64,000 nt of DNA from Rhodobacteraceae bacterium HTCC2083 (GTDB taxonomy: Bacteria > Pseudomonadota > Alphaproteobacteria > Rhodobacterales > Rhodobacteraceae). Within the stretch, counting starts at the first letter, position 1; every line of letters begins with the position of its first letter. The notes below the pieces were generated by a model. The model searched no databases. It saw nothing but the letters and a program-made list of their open reading frames with translations, and was not told where the DNA came from. This document shows positions 1,756-14,382 of this stretch, one piece after another. The translations under genes were made by a program, and so were the position numbers. The DNA lies in NCBI GenBank assembly GCA_000156115.1, contig DS995276.1, positions 2,597,483 through 2,661,482 of the forward strand, written 5' to 3'.

Positions 1756-4700
1756 TCATTCCAGCTCGATCAACAAGTCCTTTGCATCGATCTGAGCGCC
1801 TGCTTGCACATGCACCGCCTTGATCACCGCGTCGCGCTCGGCGTGGATGCCGGTTTCCATCTTCATCGCTTCAATCGTGAGTAAGAGATCACCCGCCGCG
1901 ACTTTGGCCCCGACAGTTGCCGCAACAGACGCCACGACACCCGGCATCGGTGCGCCAATGTGGTTTTCGTCTGCGGGATCGGCTTTGGGCCGTGCGGCTG
2001 TTGCTGCTTTGACCGTTCGGTTAGGCACACGAATAACACGGGGTTGACCGTTGAGTTCGAAGAACACTTTCACATCGCCATCATCCAGCGTTTCACCAAT
2101 GGCTTGCAGGCGGATTTCCAGCGTTTTGCCTGGATCAATCTCAGCTGAAATCTCCTCAGTCGGCTCCATCCCATAAAAGAACGTGCGCGTCGGCAGGACT
2201 CGCACAGGGCCATAGGTGCGATGGCGGCCCATGTAATCAAGGAACACCTTCGGATACATCAAATAGCCATTGAGATCCTCATCATCACTCTCACGCCCCT
2301 CAAGCAGGTCGCTGAGCTTCGCGCGTTCTGCGTCCAAATCGACAGGTGCAAGTGACTTGCCCGGGCGCTCAACATTGGGCGTATCACCCTTCAGAACTTT
2401 CGCGACAATCCCATCTGGGAAGCCACCGGGAGGCTGGCCCAAATTGCCTCGCATCATATCAACTACGCTGTCGGGGAAGGCCACGTCATTCTCGGGGTTT
2501 TCCACGTCAGATCGACTTAGACCTTGGCTGACCATCATCAACGCCATGTCGCCGACAACCTTGGAACTTGGCGTCACCTTAACGATATCGCCGAACATGT
2601 CGTTCACGTCCGAATAGGTGCGCGCGACCTCTGGCCAACGTTCCTCTAGTCCAAGCGAGCGTGCTTGCGCCTTAAGGTTGGTGAACTGACCGCCGGGCAT
2701 TTCGTGCAAATATACCTCAGAAGAAGGAGCCTGCTGACCTGTCTCGAAGGCAGCATATTGCGCGCGTACCTGTTCCCAATAGTCCGAAATCCGGCGTACC
2801 GATCCGATGTCGATGCCCGTGTCGCGTTCAGTGTGACGCAGGGATTCGACCACTGTGCCCAACGTCGCTTGGCTGGTGTTGCCTGAGAGCGCGTCCATGG
2901 CGCAATCCACTGCGTCCACGCCAGCGTCAGAGGCAGCAAGAATGGTCGCGCAGGCAATGCCCGCTGTGTCATGTGTGTGGAAGTGGATCGGCAGGCCAAC
3001 CTCATCTTTTAAAGCCTTCACCAAGACCCGCGCAGAGGCTGGTTTCAGCAAACCCGCCATATCCTTTAGACCCAAGACATGCGCGCCAGCATCGCGCAGC
3101 TCTTTGCCCATTTGCACATAGTATTTCAGATCATATTTAGCGCGATCTGCGTTCAAGATGTCACCGGTGTAGCAAATCGTGCCTTCGCAGACTTTGTTGG
3201 CCTCGATCACCGCATCCATCGCGACGCGCATGTTTTCGGTCCAGTTGAGGCTGTCGAATACGCGGAACACATCGACGCCCGTTTGTGCCGCTTGGCGCAC
3301 AAATTCCTTCACTACATTGTCCGGATAGTTGGTGTATCCGACCCCGTTGGCGGAGCGCAGCAACATCTGTGTCATCACATTTGGCATCGCCGCGCGGATG
3401 TCACGTAGACGCTGCCATGGGCATTCTTGCAAAAAGCGATAGGCCACATCAAAAGTCGCGCCACCCCAGCATTCAACCGAGAAAAGCTGCGACATTTCAG
3501 AGGCATAGGTTGGTGCCACGCGGATCATATCGATGGAGCGCATGCGCGTCGCGAGCAAGCTTTGATGGCCATCGCGCATCGTTGTGTCTGTCAAAAGAAG
3601 CTGCTTTTGCGCACTCATCCAGTCCGCAACCGCTTGCGGCCCCTTGTCCTCTAGCAGATTGCGCGTGCCATATGGCGCGACTTCACCCTTGAAGTCTGGT
3701 GCGCGCGGAGTTTTGAGGTCGCTCGCAGGCAAGGGCCGTCCAGCGGTTTCGGGATGGCCGTTGACACTGATATCAGCGATATAAATCAGGATTTTCGTCG
3801 CGCGGTCCCGACGTTTTTTAAAATCAAACAGATCGTCTGTGTTGTCGATGAAGGTCGTCGTGTACTCGTTGCTGAGGAATGTGGGGTGTTTCAGCAGGTT
3901 CTCAACGAAGGCGATATTGGTGCTGACGCCGCGAATACGAAACTCGCGCAGCGCGCGGTCCATGCGGGCAATCGCAGCCTCAGGCGTTTGTGCGTGGGCG
4001 GTTACTTTCATCAACAGGCTGTCATAATAGCGTGTGATGACACCACCGGAATAGGCGGTGCCGCCATCAAGGCGAATGCCCATACCCTGCGCTTCACGGA
4101 ATGCTGTGATGCGGCCATAGTCGGGGATGAAATTATTGAGGGGATCCTCCGTTGTGATCCGTGTTTGCAGCGCGTGACCATTTAGGCGCACATCATCTTG
4201 GGATGCCTTGCCCGTGGCTTCGGCAATCGTTTTGCCCTCGGCAATTTTGATCTGCGCCTGCACGATGTCGATGCCTGTGACTTCTTCCGTCACCGTGTGC
4301 TCAACCTGCACGCGCGGGTTCACTTCGATGAAGTAGAACTTTCCGCTGTCCATATCCATCAAAAATTCGACGGTGCCCGCGCATTCATAATTCACATGTG
4401 CGCAAATCTTGCGGCCGAGATCGCAAATCTCTGTGCGCTGTTCTTCGCTGAGGTAGGGTGCAGGCGCGCGCTCTACCACTTTTTGATTACGCCGCTGAAC
4501 GGAGCAATCACGCTCAAACAGGTGATACATGCCACCTTGGCTATCACCGAGGATTTGCACCTCAACGTGCCGTGCGCGTACGATCATCTTTTCGAGATAG
4601 CCCTCGTCATTGCCAAACGCCGCTTCCGCCTCACGGCGCCCTTCGAGCACCTTCTCTTCGACTTCATCTTCGGAGTAGATCGGACGCATGCCACGACCGC

Positions 4701-10968: not shown

Positions 10969-10982
10969 GTAAGCTCAGCCCA

Positions 10983-11162
10983 TCAAGGTGCTGCCTCGTC
11001 AAACAGGTAGAGAATTGGGAAGCTGGTGGAAATCCGGCGCTGCCCCCGCAACGGTGTGGGCGAGAGATTTAGCAAGACCACTGAGGCGTTTAGCCTTGGG
11101 AAGGTGCTTTATCATGGTTCGATGCGACCACTCGCTCCAAGCCCGGAAACCAGCCTTGTTAC
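10983..11162 (+). promoter_or_regulatory. Cobalamin (B12) riboswitch
   Basis: The conserved core is easy to read: GGGAAGCTGGTGGAAATCC (11018-11036), then the B12 box CTGCCCCCGCAACGGT (11040-11055), and the closing AGCCCGGAAACCAGCC (11139-11154). AAGG near 10985 and CCTT near 11153 can close the outer helix. Aptamers of this class bind adenosyl- or methylcobalamin and usually shut off downstream genes. The only gene directly downstream in the same direction is the 93-residue protein at 11289. A GGCG-AGAGATG-CGCC hairpin after the aptamer may be part of the expression platform. Confidence 0.92.
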
Positions 11163-11288
11163 GAAGTCGAAACCGCGGGTGGCGGAGCAGGCGAGAGATG
11201 CGCCGCTTGTTTGCTTTGCCCATCTTCTCATCTGCACAGGCACCCGTTCACATACACAAGAACCACGGGGCGTGGGTAAGGAGACAAG

Positions 11289-12824: not shown

Positions 12825-13617
12825 ATGTGTGATTTTCATTTGGCGCTGGCGCAAGCCCCGTCCGATTTGACCAGCAAATCAGCACGTCTGAAGTGGCTTG
12901 AAGCACAATTGCCAGATATTGCGGCGAATGGCACGGATTTGGTTCTTTTGCCTGAATTGTTTGCTTGCGGTTATGGCATTGGTGATCAAATCCATAGCTC
13001 GGCAGAGCCGCGTGGGGGCAAAAACGGCGCAAGCTTTGGCACGTTCGGCGCGTCAGTTTAGCGTTGCAATCCACTGAGGTTACGTCGAGCGCGATGGCGA
13101 TATGCTTTATAATAGCGCCAGTTGCATTGGTCCTGATGAGGGCGAGTTGGTTAATCAACGAAAGCTTGCGATTCCTCCGGGATTTGAGCTGGACTATTTT
13201 AGTGCGGGACAGGGCTGTAATCTGTTCACCTGCAAAGGCTTCAAGATCGCAACCCTGATTTGCTATGATGACGAATTTGCCGAAACCGTACGTCATGTTG
13301 CCGCGCAAGGCGCAGATTTGGTGCTGGTACCGACGGCGCTTGGCGCGGATTGGGATTGGGTCGCAGAAAAGGTAATGCCCACGCGCGCATTTGAGAATGG
13401 TATTTTCTTCGCATATGCGAATGGGGTGGAGACGCAGGGTGAAATGACCTTTCTTGGCAAAAGCGTTATCGCTGGTCCGTCAGGAACAGAACCGAGCCGC
13501 GCAGGCAGTGATCCAGAAATTCTACATGCTGCGCTTGATTTGCCTTTGGTCGCAAAAGCACAGTCGCGGCTGCCGTATTTGGCTGATCCTGGGTGGCTAA
13601 AGCTGGATTGCCAATAG
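12825..13617 (+). pseudogene. Carbon-nitrogen hydrolase (nitrilase superfamily), frameshift plus stop
   Basis: The N-terminal piece (12825 to about 13018) ends with the catalytic-Glu strand LVLLPELFACGYG. A one-base loss near 13015-13022 moves the reading frame to AQALARSARQFSVAIH, which then meets an in-frame TGA near 13075 where relatives have a codon. After the stop the same frame continues intact to 13617 with GYVERDGDMLYNSASC, the catalytic-Cys segment LICYDDEFAE and GADLVLVPTALGADW. The active-site Glu and Cys are therefore both still encoded, but not on one open frame. It was an amidase or nitrilase of unknown substrate, in an operon with the broken M24 gene. Confidence 0.85.
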
Positions 13618-13637
13618 GCCAACTACAAAAACGAAAA

Positions 13638-13668
13638 AACGACGATGTGTGGGAGGACACATCGCCGT
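13638..13668 (-). ncRNA. CcsR/cuckoo-type hairpin sRNA, copy 4, with terminator
   Basis: The stem CGATGTGT/ACACATCG (13643-13650 with 13657-13664) on the minus strand shows UCCUCCC in the loop. It is followed on that strand by TCGTTTTTTCG (13639-13629), so it also works as the rho-independent end of the array that starts at the DUF1127 gene. Confidence 0.8.
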
Positions 13669-13676
13669 TCTATGTA

Positions 13677-13712
13677 AGCACGCCGCTCGAAGGGAGGAGA
13701 AAGCGTAGTGCT
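13677..13712 (-). ncRNA. CcsR/cuckoo-type hairpin sRNA, copy 3
   Basis: Two stacked stems, AGCAC/GTGCT (13677-13681 with 13708-13712) and CGCT/AGCG (13684-13687 with 13702-13705). On the minus strand the loop carries CUCCUCCC (complement of 13692-13699). Same architecture as its three neighbours but with an unrelated stem sequence. Confidence 0.8.
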
Positions 13713-13743
13713 ATGAGTGGTCCGTTCTAGACCGTTGTTTTTA

Positions 13744-13775
13744 GCGGCAGTAAAATGGGAGGACTTTACTGCCGC
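13744..13775 (-). ncRNA. CcsR/cuckoo-type hairpin sRNA, copy 2
   Basis: An uninterrupted 11-pair stem, GCGGCAGTAAA (13744-13754) with TTTACTGCCGC (13765-13775). On the minus strand the ten-base loop reads GUCCUCCCAU. Confidence 0.85.
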
Positions 13776-13782
13776 CATGTTC

Positions 13783-13814
13783 GGCCAAGCTCTTTTGGGA
13801 GGAGTGAGCTGGCC
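13783..13814 (-). ncRNA. CcsR/cuckoo-type hairpin sRNA, copy 1
   Basis: The stem GGCCA-A-GCTC (13783-13792) pairs with GAGC-TGGCC (13806-13814) around one bulged A. The minus-strand loop is ACUCCUCCCAAAA. It begins 14 bases after the stop codon of the DUF1127 gene, so it is probably cut from the same transcript. Confidence 0.85.
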
Positions 13815-13828
13815 AATTCTTGAATTCT

Positions 13829-14044
13829 TTAGATCTTGTACGCTGTGTCCAGAGCAAGGCGGCGGATCATTGAGCGGTGAATGCCCAAGTCAGCCAATTC
13901 GCGATCTGAAAGTGTATTCAATTCACGTACCGTTGTGTTGTAAACAATGCGCTTTGCGTTTGCTTCTTTGATTCCAGTCCAGAGTGCAGCGATCTTGTCG
14001 CCAAATGTGCTGTGAGCGGAGAATGTGTCTGTGAGGAATGCCAT
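13829..14044 (-). CDS. DUF1127 small protein (CcaF1-like)
   Basis: A 71-residue protein; the second half is a typical DUF1127 domain (NTTVRELNTLSDRELADLGI followed by HRSMIRRLA), an arginine-rich two-helix motif. I chose ATG 14044 (MAFLTDTFSAHSTFGDK), preceded by AAGGATG; the frame is open further upstream to 14281 but that part has no family character. In Rhodobacter sphaeroides the corresponding DUF1127 gene, ccaF1, encodes a small RNA-binding protein co-transcribed with the CcsR1-4 sRNAs. Here too four hairpins with UCCUCCC loops follow directly, so I infer an orthologous stress-induced unit. Confidence 0.85.
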   Translation of the reverse strand: MAFLTDTFSAHSTFGDKIAALWTGIKEANAKRIVYNTTVRELNTLSDRELADLGIHRSMIRRLALDTAYKI

Positions 14045-14108: not shown

Positions 14109-14136
14109 ATATGGAGATTATGCTGCGCTTGCACAA
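14109..14136 (-). promoter_or_regulatory. Candidate promoter of the DUF1127-sRNA unit
   Basis: On the minus strand TTGTGC (14136-14131) and CCATAT (14114-14109) are 16 bases apart, with the likely start near 14100, about 55 bases before the ATG. The TTG and CCATAT parts resemble a heat-shock sigma (RpoH) promoter, which drives this locus in Rhodobacter sphaeroides. It is found by eye only. Confidence 0.3.
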
Positions 14137-14223
14137 TGTCCATTTCTTCAATGCTGCTATGCAGCAATTGCATGGGCGACGTAGGGTTAGCTAACGGTAA
14201 TCGTTTGCTTATTTTTTGACCAT

Positions 14224-14382
14224 TTGAATAACTTTCTGATTTCGAAGGTTTTTTCCCATATTTCTCTGTTCGCGCTAGCATTCATCTTGTCAGTCCTGTC
14301 GGCACTTGCACTTGCACTTGCACTTGCGCTCGCGCGTAAAGCTGCCAGTTATGACAAAACGCAGGTTAGGAGATTGAAATGA
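14224..14382 (+). CDS. Possible small hydrophobic protein upstream of mrp
   Basis: A 52-codon frame starting at TTG 14224 reads NNFLISKVFSHISLFALAF, then a single hydrophobic helix with an Ala-Leu repeat, then a basic tail (ARKAASYDKTQVRRLK). Its TGA (14380-14382) overlaps the mrp ATG as ATGA, the usual sign of translational coupling. Against it: there is no good ribosome site, no ATG, and the Ala-Leu stretch is produced by a simple six-base repeat. Treat it as a candidate only. Confidence 0.3.
   Translation: MNNFLISKVFSHISLFALAFILSVLSALALALALALARKAASYDKTQVRRLK
14302..14325 (+). repeat. Hexanucleotide tandem repeat GCACTT x4
   Basis: Four perfect head-to-tail copies of GCACTT, followed by the related GCGCTC. 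It lies 54 bases before mrp. Copy number changes would keep the surrounding open frame, since the unit is six bases. Confidence 0.9.

Follow-up and report, generated by a model that had tools for sequence, protein, structure and literature searches.

A ccaF1-CcsR-type operon in a Planktotalea-like genome, with two predicted anti-Shine-Dalgarno RNAs and transporter genes as candidate targets

A DUF1127 gene and, behind it, five hairpins (A1, B1, the small c, A2 and B2) occupy the minus strand at 13636-14044 of the window, the whole 64-kb stretch of DNA analyzed in this study. With a probability of roughly 85%, we read the locus as a ccaF1-CcsR operon, from which two anti-Shine-Dalgarno (anti-SD) CcsR RNAs would pair with GGGAGGA and most likely damp uptake, under a promoter with a putative site for a LysR-type regulator. 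The locus, its structure, covariation and conservation, the promoter boxes and the enrichment of candidate targets in the window genome are described below from the sequence. Statements on published systems follow excerpts of the papers cited.

Organization of the locus

The features are as follows.

14159..14172, minus strand: promoter box 1, TGCA-N6-GCAT (TGCAATTGCTGCAT)
14120..14133, minus strand: promoter box 2, TGCA-N6-GCAT (TGCAAGCGCAGCAT), 39 bp from box 1
14109..14136, minus strand: candidate -35/-10 elements, TTGTGC-N16-CCATAT, RpoH-like by form only
13829..14044, minus strand: DUF1127 gene, ccaF1 orthologue, 71 aa (Pfam PF06568, E 1.6e-12)
13781..13816, minus strand: hairpin A1, 11 bp, loop ACUCCUCCCAAAA (RNAfold)
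13742..13777, minus strand: hairpin B1, 15 bp, loop CCUCCC; with A1, putative CcsR unit 1
13719..13733, minus strand: spacer hairpin c, 5 bp, without the motif in the window (fold; double changes in 2 of 5 pairs)
13677..13712, minus strand: hairpin A2, 10 bp, loop UCUCCUCCCUUC (RNAfold)
13636..13671, minus strand: hairpin B2, the terminator, 15 bp, loop CCUCCC; with A2, putative CcsR unit 2

The hairpins begin 12 nt past the DUF1127 stop on the same strand (gene end 13829, first hairpin from 13816), and the stem of B2 leads into a T tract. The Pfam match, the short gap and the T tract bear out the initial annotation, which had placed a DUF1127 gene directly before the hairpins and a terminator last. 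The stretch it had delimited, 13638-14044, holds the gene and the array, but the promoter, which extends to 14172, lies outside.

TCCTCCC is found on the minus strand at 13651-13657, 13692-13698, 13757-13763 and 13797-13803. RNAfold places all four copies in or at hairpin loops, in agreement with the four minus-strand UCCUCCC hairpins first described; for B1 and B2 the prediction leaves only CCUCCC in the loop and puts the U of the motif in a pair at the loop base. The predicted minimum free energy of the array is -78.3 kcal/mol (z -8.3), a stability equalled in 0 of 200 shuffles. Both strands of the window together hold 6 TCCTCCC copies against 4.8 expected by shuffling, so the total is ordinary, whereas four copies within 153 bases are not. 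Among 2000 dinucleotide shuffles of the 200-nt array, TCCTCCC was obtained once in 60 shuffles and never twice. Genome-wide, CTCCTCCC shows no excess (31 versus 33 in the control), nor do CCTCC-N28-58-CCTCC pairs (67 versus 67 in the reversed control), and the pairs were therefore used only together with a hairpin test. By this combined scan, which is blind to single-hairpin or unstructured anti-SD RNAs, the array is the only stretch of the genome with at least two CCTCC-loop hairpins of at least 8 bp (61 stretches, 67 listed pairs).

The ccaF1-orthologous protein has matches in all six genomes of the genus, its own included. Its four closest DUF1127 relatives (L001, at 89%, to L004) are all Planktotalea, and the window genome is that of a Planktotalea-like member of Rhodobacterales. 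The genome has three further DUF1127 genes, none of them with an array: there is one CCTCC in L081 and none in L083 and L084. At L081 (1303), the sequence CTGC-N3-GCAG precedes the gene start by about 130 nt.

Several neighboring elements were also observed. Convergent to the array, a carbon-nitrogen hydrolase gene is split over two frames (12825-13061 and 13102-13617, plus strand), with Pfam PF00795 in both pieces; homologues lie behind the array in L001 and L003. A cobalamin riboswitch (110 bits) is located at 10969-11172 on the plus strand, and a short tandem repeat of GCACTT at 14302-14327, plus strand, in the intergenic region before mrp.

Family membership and spread

Assignment of the locus to the ccaF1-CcsR (CIN1, cuckoo) family of Rhodobacterales, with a shortened loop motif, is supported by sequence comparison. 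The locus is known as CIN1 and in Rhodobacter sphaeroides as ccaF1-CcsR1-4, where CcaF1 is likewise of 71 aa (PMC10253847). We kept the best 80 of 197 DUF1127 relatives; 79 of these have the gene end, L004 being without a stop in the stored DNA. Downstream of the gene, 76 of the 79 carry 2 to 11 CCTCC-loop hairpins of any stem length, or 75 with a minimum stem of 6 bp (L003 drops out), counts that refer to related sequences and not to independent events. The three loci without an array are L022 and L043, which have CCTCC hairpins further downstream, and L045, whose DNA ends after 159 nt. Upstream, 64 of 81 loci show a divergently oriented mrp match, which is short and weak in two of them (L011, L074). 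The identity proposed in the initial annotation is thus upheld by the 71-aa DUF1127 protein, CCUCC in every loop, the terminator and the shared arrangement in the relatives.

The loop motif itself is divergent. The longer motif of the family (CCUCCUCC or CCTCCTCC) occurs in 427 of 487 loops at the other loci, and CCTCCTCC in 1 of 13 loops of the window and L001-L003; with stems of at least 6 bp the figures are 416/475 and 0/11. None of the four window loops has the full motif CCUCCUCCC, and all retain the core UCCUCCC. One loop of L120, from the same genus, contains CCTCCTCCC, so the shortened motif is not fixed in the genus.

Rfam models gave little in the window: RF02344 (ar14) scored 28.2 and 30.6 bits, below its gathering score of 58.8, and RF02791 (CcsR1, gathering score 65.3 bits) had no match at E up to 10. 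Among six loci scanned, the ar14 threshold was reached only by L432 (102.8 bits) and L005 (59.0 and 58.8 bits), and the CcsR1 threshold of 65.3 bits by none, the best score being 53.5 bits. Since these relatives mostly fall below the thresholds too, the failure of the window says little. A whole-genome ar14 search was discarded as evidence; it yielded no match with an E of 10 or less, and its control was positive in 9 of 14 unrelated genomes.

Three known systems can be compared with the array. The R. sphaeroides ccaF1-CcsR1-4 locus has the same parts, a 71-aa DUF1127 gene, tandem CcsR RNAs and a terminator, but with four units instead of two, CCUCCUCCC instead of UCCUCCC as loop motif, and a reported RpoHI/RpoHII promoter where that of the window is RpoH-like by form. 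The alpha-r14/NfeR1 RNAs of rhizobia (RF02344) also combine variable stems with an anti-SD motif in each loop; they differ in having three hairpins and, in Sinorhizobium meliloti, their own sigma-70 promoter. On plasmid pPR2 of Rhizobium leguminosarum (L432), an ar14 array scoring 102.8 bits is located about 220 nt behind a DUF1127 gene. AbcR1 and AbcR2 are likewise anti-SD RNAs that control transporter mRNAs, but they have two distinct anti-SD motifs and no tandem CCUCC hairpins behind DUF1127.

Two loci deserve separate mention. A locus labelled Exiguobacterium profundum (L016) shows a Rhodobacterales-type DUF1127-mrp arrangement with an array, and probably comes from a mislabelled genome. 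In Sulfitobacter (L078), the best unit match (2181-2258; E 3.6e-11) lies upstream of DUF1127, between DUF1127 and mrp, and weaker unit matches lie downstream of DUF1127.

Covariation within the genus

Five genomes of the genus (the window, L001, L002, L003 and L120) were aligned over the array, and the A-B-c-A-B layout is common to all of them. Twenty-one of 60 base pairs are changed on both sides. Cells with double changes number 33 against 14.4 in shuffles, and 0 of 500 shuffles reach 33; 88.9% of the pair cells are standard, and the signal is destroyed by sliding the partners. One of the five measures, the number of further pair types, stays within the shuffle range (50 of 500 reach it). 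TCCTCCC is retained at 18 of 20 loop positions; A1 of L001 and B2 of L002 no longer have it. The stem of terminator B2 (helix 6) behaves differently, with double changes in 0 of 17 pairs and 13 of 17 pairs invariant. In L120, the hairpin at the c position, between the units, has CCTCCC in its loop, and gain or loss of the motif is thus possible there.

Conservation of the loops in related genomes, which had been named as one point on which the first interpretation could fail, is borne out by the 18 of 20 positions. The idea that selection acts on the loops, with stems unrelated in sequence, stands as far as the retained loops and the compensating stems go, but not for the terminator stem, which is conserved in the genus. 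The belief that copy number and stems are specific to this genome has to be given up, as five genomes share the layout and the terminator stem hardly varies. These data also bear on whether the hairpins are only a structural 3' UTR or a multi-hairpin terminator without function in trans. The last hairpin is indeed a terminator and the stems are stable, yet the loop letters are kept while the stems change with compensation, and arrays of 2 to 11 hairpins recur in the relatives; we regard a purely structural role as very improbable.

Number of RNAs

The array is most likely composed of two CcsR RNAs of two hairpins each, with the fifth, motif-less hairpin between them. This reading is based on the rhythm of the gaps, the span of the CcsR1 model and two matches of an independent model. 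Gaps are 3 and 5 nt inside the hairpin pairs and 29 nt between them. Among loci with at least four hairpins, the window included, the second hairpin follows the first within 15 nt in 210 of 229 cases; the distance from the second to the next is longer in 128 of 177 and short in 49, so the rhythm is not universal. In L005, L014 and L028 the 83-position CcsR1 model of Rfam extends over a single A-B pair, scoring below its threshold, with four matches in L028 and 89-nt steps in L005. In the latter locus (2857-3297) the steps are exactly 89 nt, a sign of recent tandem amplification.

A covariance model, R1, was built from 38 non-Planktotalea pairs only. It matches the window at 13742-13822 (E 0.014) and 13637-13716 (E 0.00023), and nowhere else in the 64 kb at E up to 1. 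The structure of R1 is one stem of 8 pairs, and the model thus leans on the loop sequence and stem B. The check by covariance model suggested at the outset therefore recovered the array and nothing else in the window at that E value. The expectation of four processed RNAs of 40-70 nt, one per hairpin, fared less well. Four separate stable hairpins are predicted, but the narrow gaps within pairs against the wide one between them, the similar though not universal rhythm in the relatives and the extent of CcsR1 over two hairpins make four RNAs quite unlikely, and two RNAs are the preferred reading.

Candidate targets with GGGAGGA

UCCUCCC is complementary to GGGAGGA, and GGGAGGA-N2-9-ATG occurs at 55 sites of the genome versus 7 in the reversed control. 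Once ORFs shorter than 100 aa are set aside (among them L187, of 81 aa and with a binding-protein-like start), the sites lead to 34 different ORFs, and 21 of the 34 encode periplasmic solute-binding proteins (Pfam DctP, SBP_bac, Peripla_BP, TctC, NMT1_3). The target idea came from the readable part of the first 30 sites, and the other 25 were taken later as a second set; the solute-binding share is 9/16 in the first and 12/18 in the second. Among the Pfam matches listed for other GGAGG starts, 2 of 50 ORFs are solute-binding (Fisher 4.6e-9 versus 21/34); one of these scans listed 25 of 71 families and may conceal a lone, weaker match to a binding protein. Both positives belong to the AGGAGGA starts, for which the proportion is 2/18 (Fisher 4.8e-4 versus 21/34). 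These controls were drawn from the first listed 75 of 696 GGAGG sites, all 29 AGGAGGA sites and 30 of 107 GGGAGGB sites; the 134 sites gave 59 ORFs, 51 without repeats and 50 after removal of L236, which is on the wrong strand. Ten controls were chosen for their N-terminus and scanned individually.

In a second Planktotalea (G001), 9 of 23 GGGAGGA ORFs are solute-binding (3.0e-4 against the controls of the window genome, not its own). Here 30 of 49 sites were read; nine of the ORFs were scanned with Pfam, three were assigned via blastp to scanned orthologues and the rest by N-terminus. The orthologues of L202, L203 and L104, all solute-binding, keep GGGAGGA in this genome. No enrichment was found in Ruegeria lacuscaerulensis, with 5/24 GGGAGGA against 2/18 AGGAGGA ORFs (Fisher 0.68), and 5/24 is lower than the 21/34 of the window genome (0.003). 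These figures come from 30 of 73 and 30 of 61 sites, with 8 of 24 and 3 of 18 ORFs scanned with Pfam and the rest judged by N-terminus; one ORF is in both sets (L344 = L376), and the AGGAGGA loci L372-L375 lie around Ruegeria's own array. Its loops contain CUCCUCCUCCC, which fits both Shine-Dalgarno forms, and the comparison is therefore weak. We take the Ruegeria result as giving no support to the target claim as a family rule, and do not count it as a refutation.

The calculated duplex between loop and target is -14.4 to -15.8 kcal/mol with GGGAGGA and -10.7 to -10.9 kcal/mol with AGGAGGA. For the 16S tail, with the sequence we take it to have, the value is -10.2 kcal/mol with both. GGAGG before a start codon is also simply a ribosome site.

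The array might instead act on a few specific targets (flhR, C1 metabolism, as in R. sphaeroides). The GGGAGGA excess would then reflect the strong ribosome sites that highly expressed genes have, or some other anti-SD RNA. In R. sphaeroides, flhR is the published CcsR target (PMC8307010), Ruegeria has no excess, and rhizobial AbcR RNAs, with similar anti-SD motifs, silence the same class of genes (PMC8844928). Against this stand the AGGAGGA starts, which are not enriched, and the genome scan for CCTCC pairs, which revealed no second array, though an RNA with a single hairpin or no structure would escape it. We consider such a narrow target range the less likely case, with an appreciable chance of being right. 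Regulation of solute-binding genes by these RNAs, which we prefer, has a counterpart in NfeR1, which silences mRNAs of periplasmic binding proteins via CCUCCUCCC loops (PMC10746234, PMC8844928).

Promoter boxes and a candidate regulator

Upstream regions of 250 nt were collected from the 63 of 81 loci (80 loci and the window) whose match begins with ATG and whose DNA is usable. TGCA-N6-GCAT is present in 52 of the 63 and TGCA-N6-GCAW in 62, window included, against means of 1.4 and 3.0 in dinucleotide shuffles. Of 1106 control windows from the same loci, largely coding, 5 and 10 contain the respective forms. Pairs of boxes 39-40 bp apart occur in 27 upstream regions and in 0 of the 1106 control windows. 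The single region without TGCA-N6-GCAW is that of L016. We regard this as a strong operator signal at the sequence level. In the window, box 2 overlaps the likely -35 region. TTG-N18-21-CYATNT is found in 42/63 upstream regions (mean 1.2 in single-base shuffles), and an RpoHI/RpoHII promoter is reported for R. sphaeroides ccaF1 (PMC10253847).

The simplest interpretation of the boxes is that a LysR-type regulator akin to LsrB and VtlR binds there. LsrB binds TGCA-N6-GCAT and activates NfeR1 (PMC10746234), and two copies of this published form are present upstream of the window gene. VtlR activates abcR1 in Agrobacterium tumefaciens (PMC7486931), and an LsrB motif is described in the abcR1 promoter of S. 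meliloti (PMC8844928). A 14-mer identical to box 1 stands about 120 nt upstream of the DUF1127 start on pPR2 of R. leguminosarum (L432). A DNA search of plasmids with the promoter gave 32 records, all of them weak, with E of at least 0.3 among the matches listed; two records were opened, and in both the match was upstream of a DUF1127 gene. GCAT-N3-TG-N3-T, the box described for VtlR/LsrB in Brucella and Agrobacterium (PMC7486931), is absent upstream of the window gene and present in 8 of 63 upstream regions. LsrB is reported to be confined to Rhizobiales, according to a small tree in which R. sphaeroides was included (PMC11975290).

PhaR, which would tie the array to the carbon store PHB, is another candidate reader of the boxes. 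The exact PhaR operator has the form CTGC-N3-GCAG. This form is present in 46/63 upstream regions versus 9/1106 control windows, PhaR sites are TGC-rich (PMC10888616), and in S. meliloti PhaR represses MmgR, an RNA with an anti-SD loop (PMC12542648, PMC7143759). TGCA-N6-GCAW nevertheless covers 62 of the 63 regions, and of the two boxes in the window only box 1 has the form CTGC-N3-GCAG. PhaR is accordingly an unlikely reader, and a LysR-type regulator is preferred.

Proposed mechanism and meaning

We infer transcription, processing, pairing, the effect on uptake and the regulator from these patterns and from the published systems. One promoter, stress-controlled in R. sphaeroides, would produce a transcript encoding CcaF1 with the CcsR RNAs in its 3' UTR. 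This region would comprise two RNAs of the CcsR type, about 80 nt long; in each, a weaker hairpin (A) precedes a stronger one (B), and the final B would terminate the transcript. RNase E, with CcaF1 involved, would cut the transcript and free the RNAs, as reported for R. sphaeroides. The UCCUCCC of each hairpin could then pair with GGGAGGA, for which the calculated duplex is clearly stronger than for AGGAGGA, and so block translation. As GGGAGGA stands mainly before solute-binding genes of TRAP, ABC and tricarboxylate transporters, the array would most likely damp nutrient uptake under stress. A bolder proposal, which we hold with somewhat less than even confidence, is that an unnamed LysR-type regulator reads the often-paired TGCA-N6-GCAW boxes across Rhodobacterales, an operator of the type that LsrB uses at NfeR1, the rhizobial sister RNA, and that the Planktotalea RNAs shut a regulon of TRAP and ABC solute-binding genes via GGGAGGA.

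The array itself is of a known kind, while the target set and the operator may be new. Neither was found in the excerpts of the literature examined; the founding papers, outside that scope, may already contain either. The sigma factors RpoHI and RpoHII are the only transcription factors named in the excerpts on the ccaF1-CcsR operon. The candidate targets and the operator turn a stress RNA of few known targets into a testable uptake switch. If the bolder proposal is true, DUF1127, cuckoo RNAs and a LysR-type switch would form an uptake-control module common to Rhizobiales and Rhodobacterales, and loop length and Shine-Dalgarno form would evolve together, a co-evolution for which this locus is a natural test.
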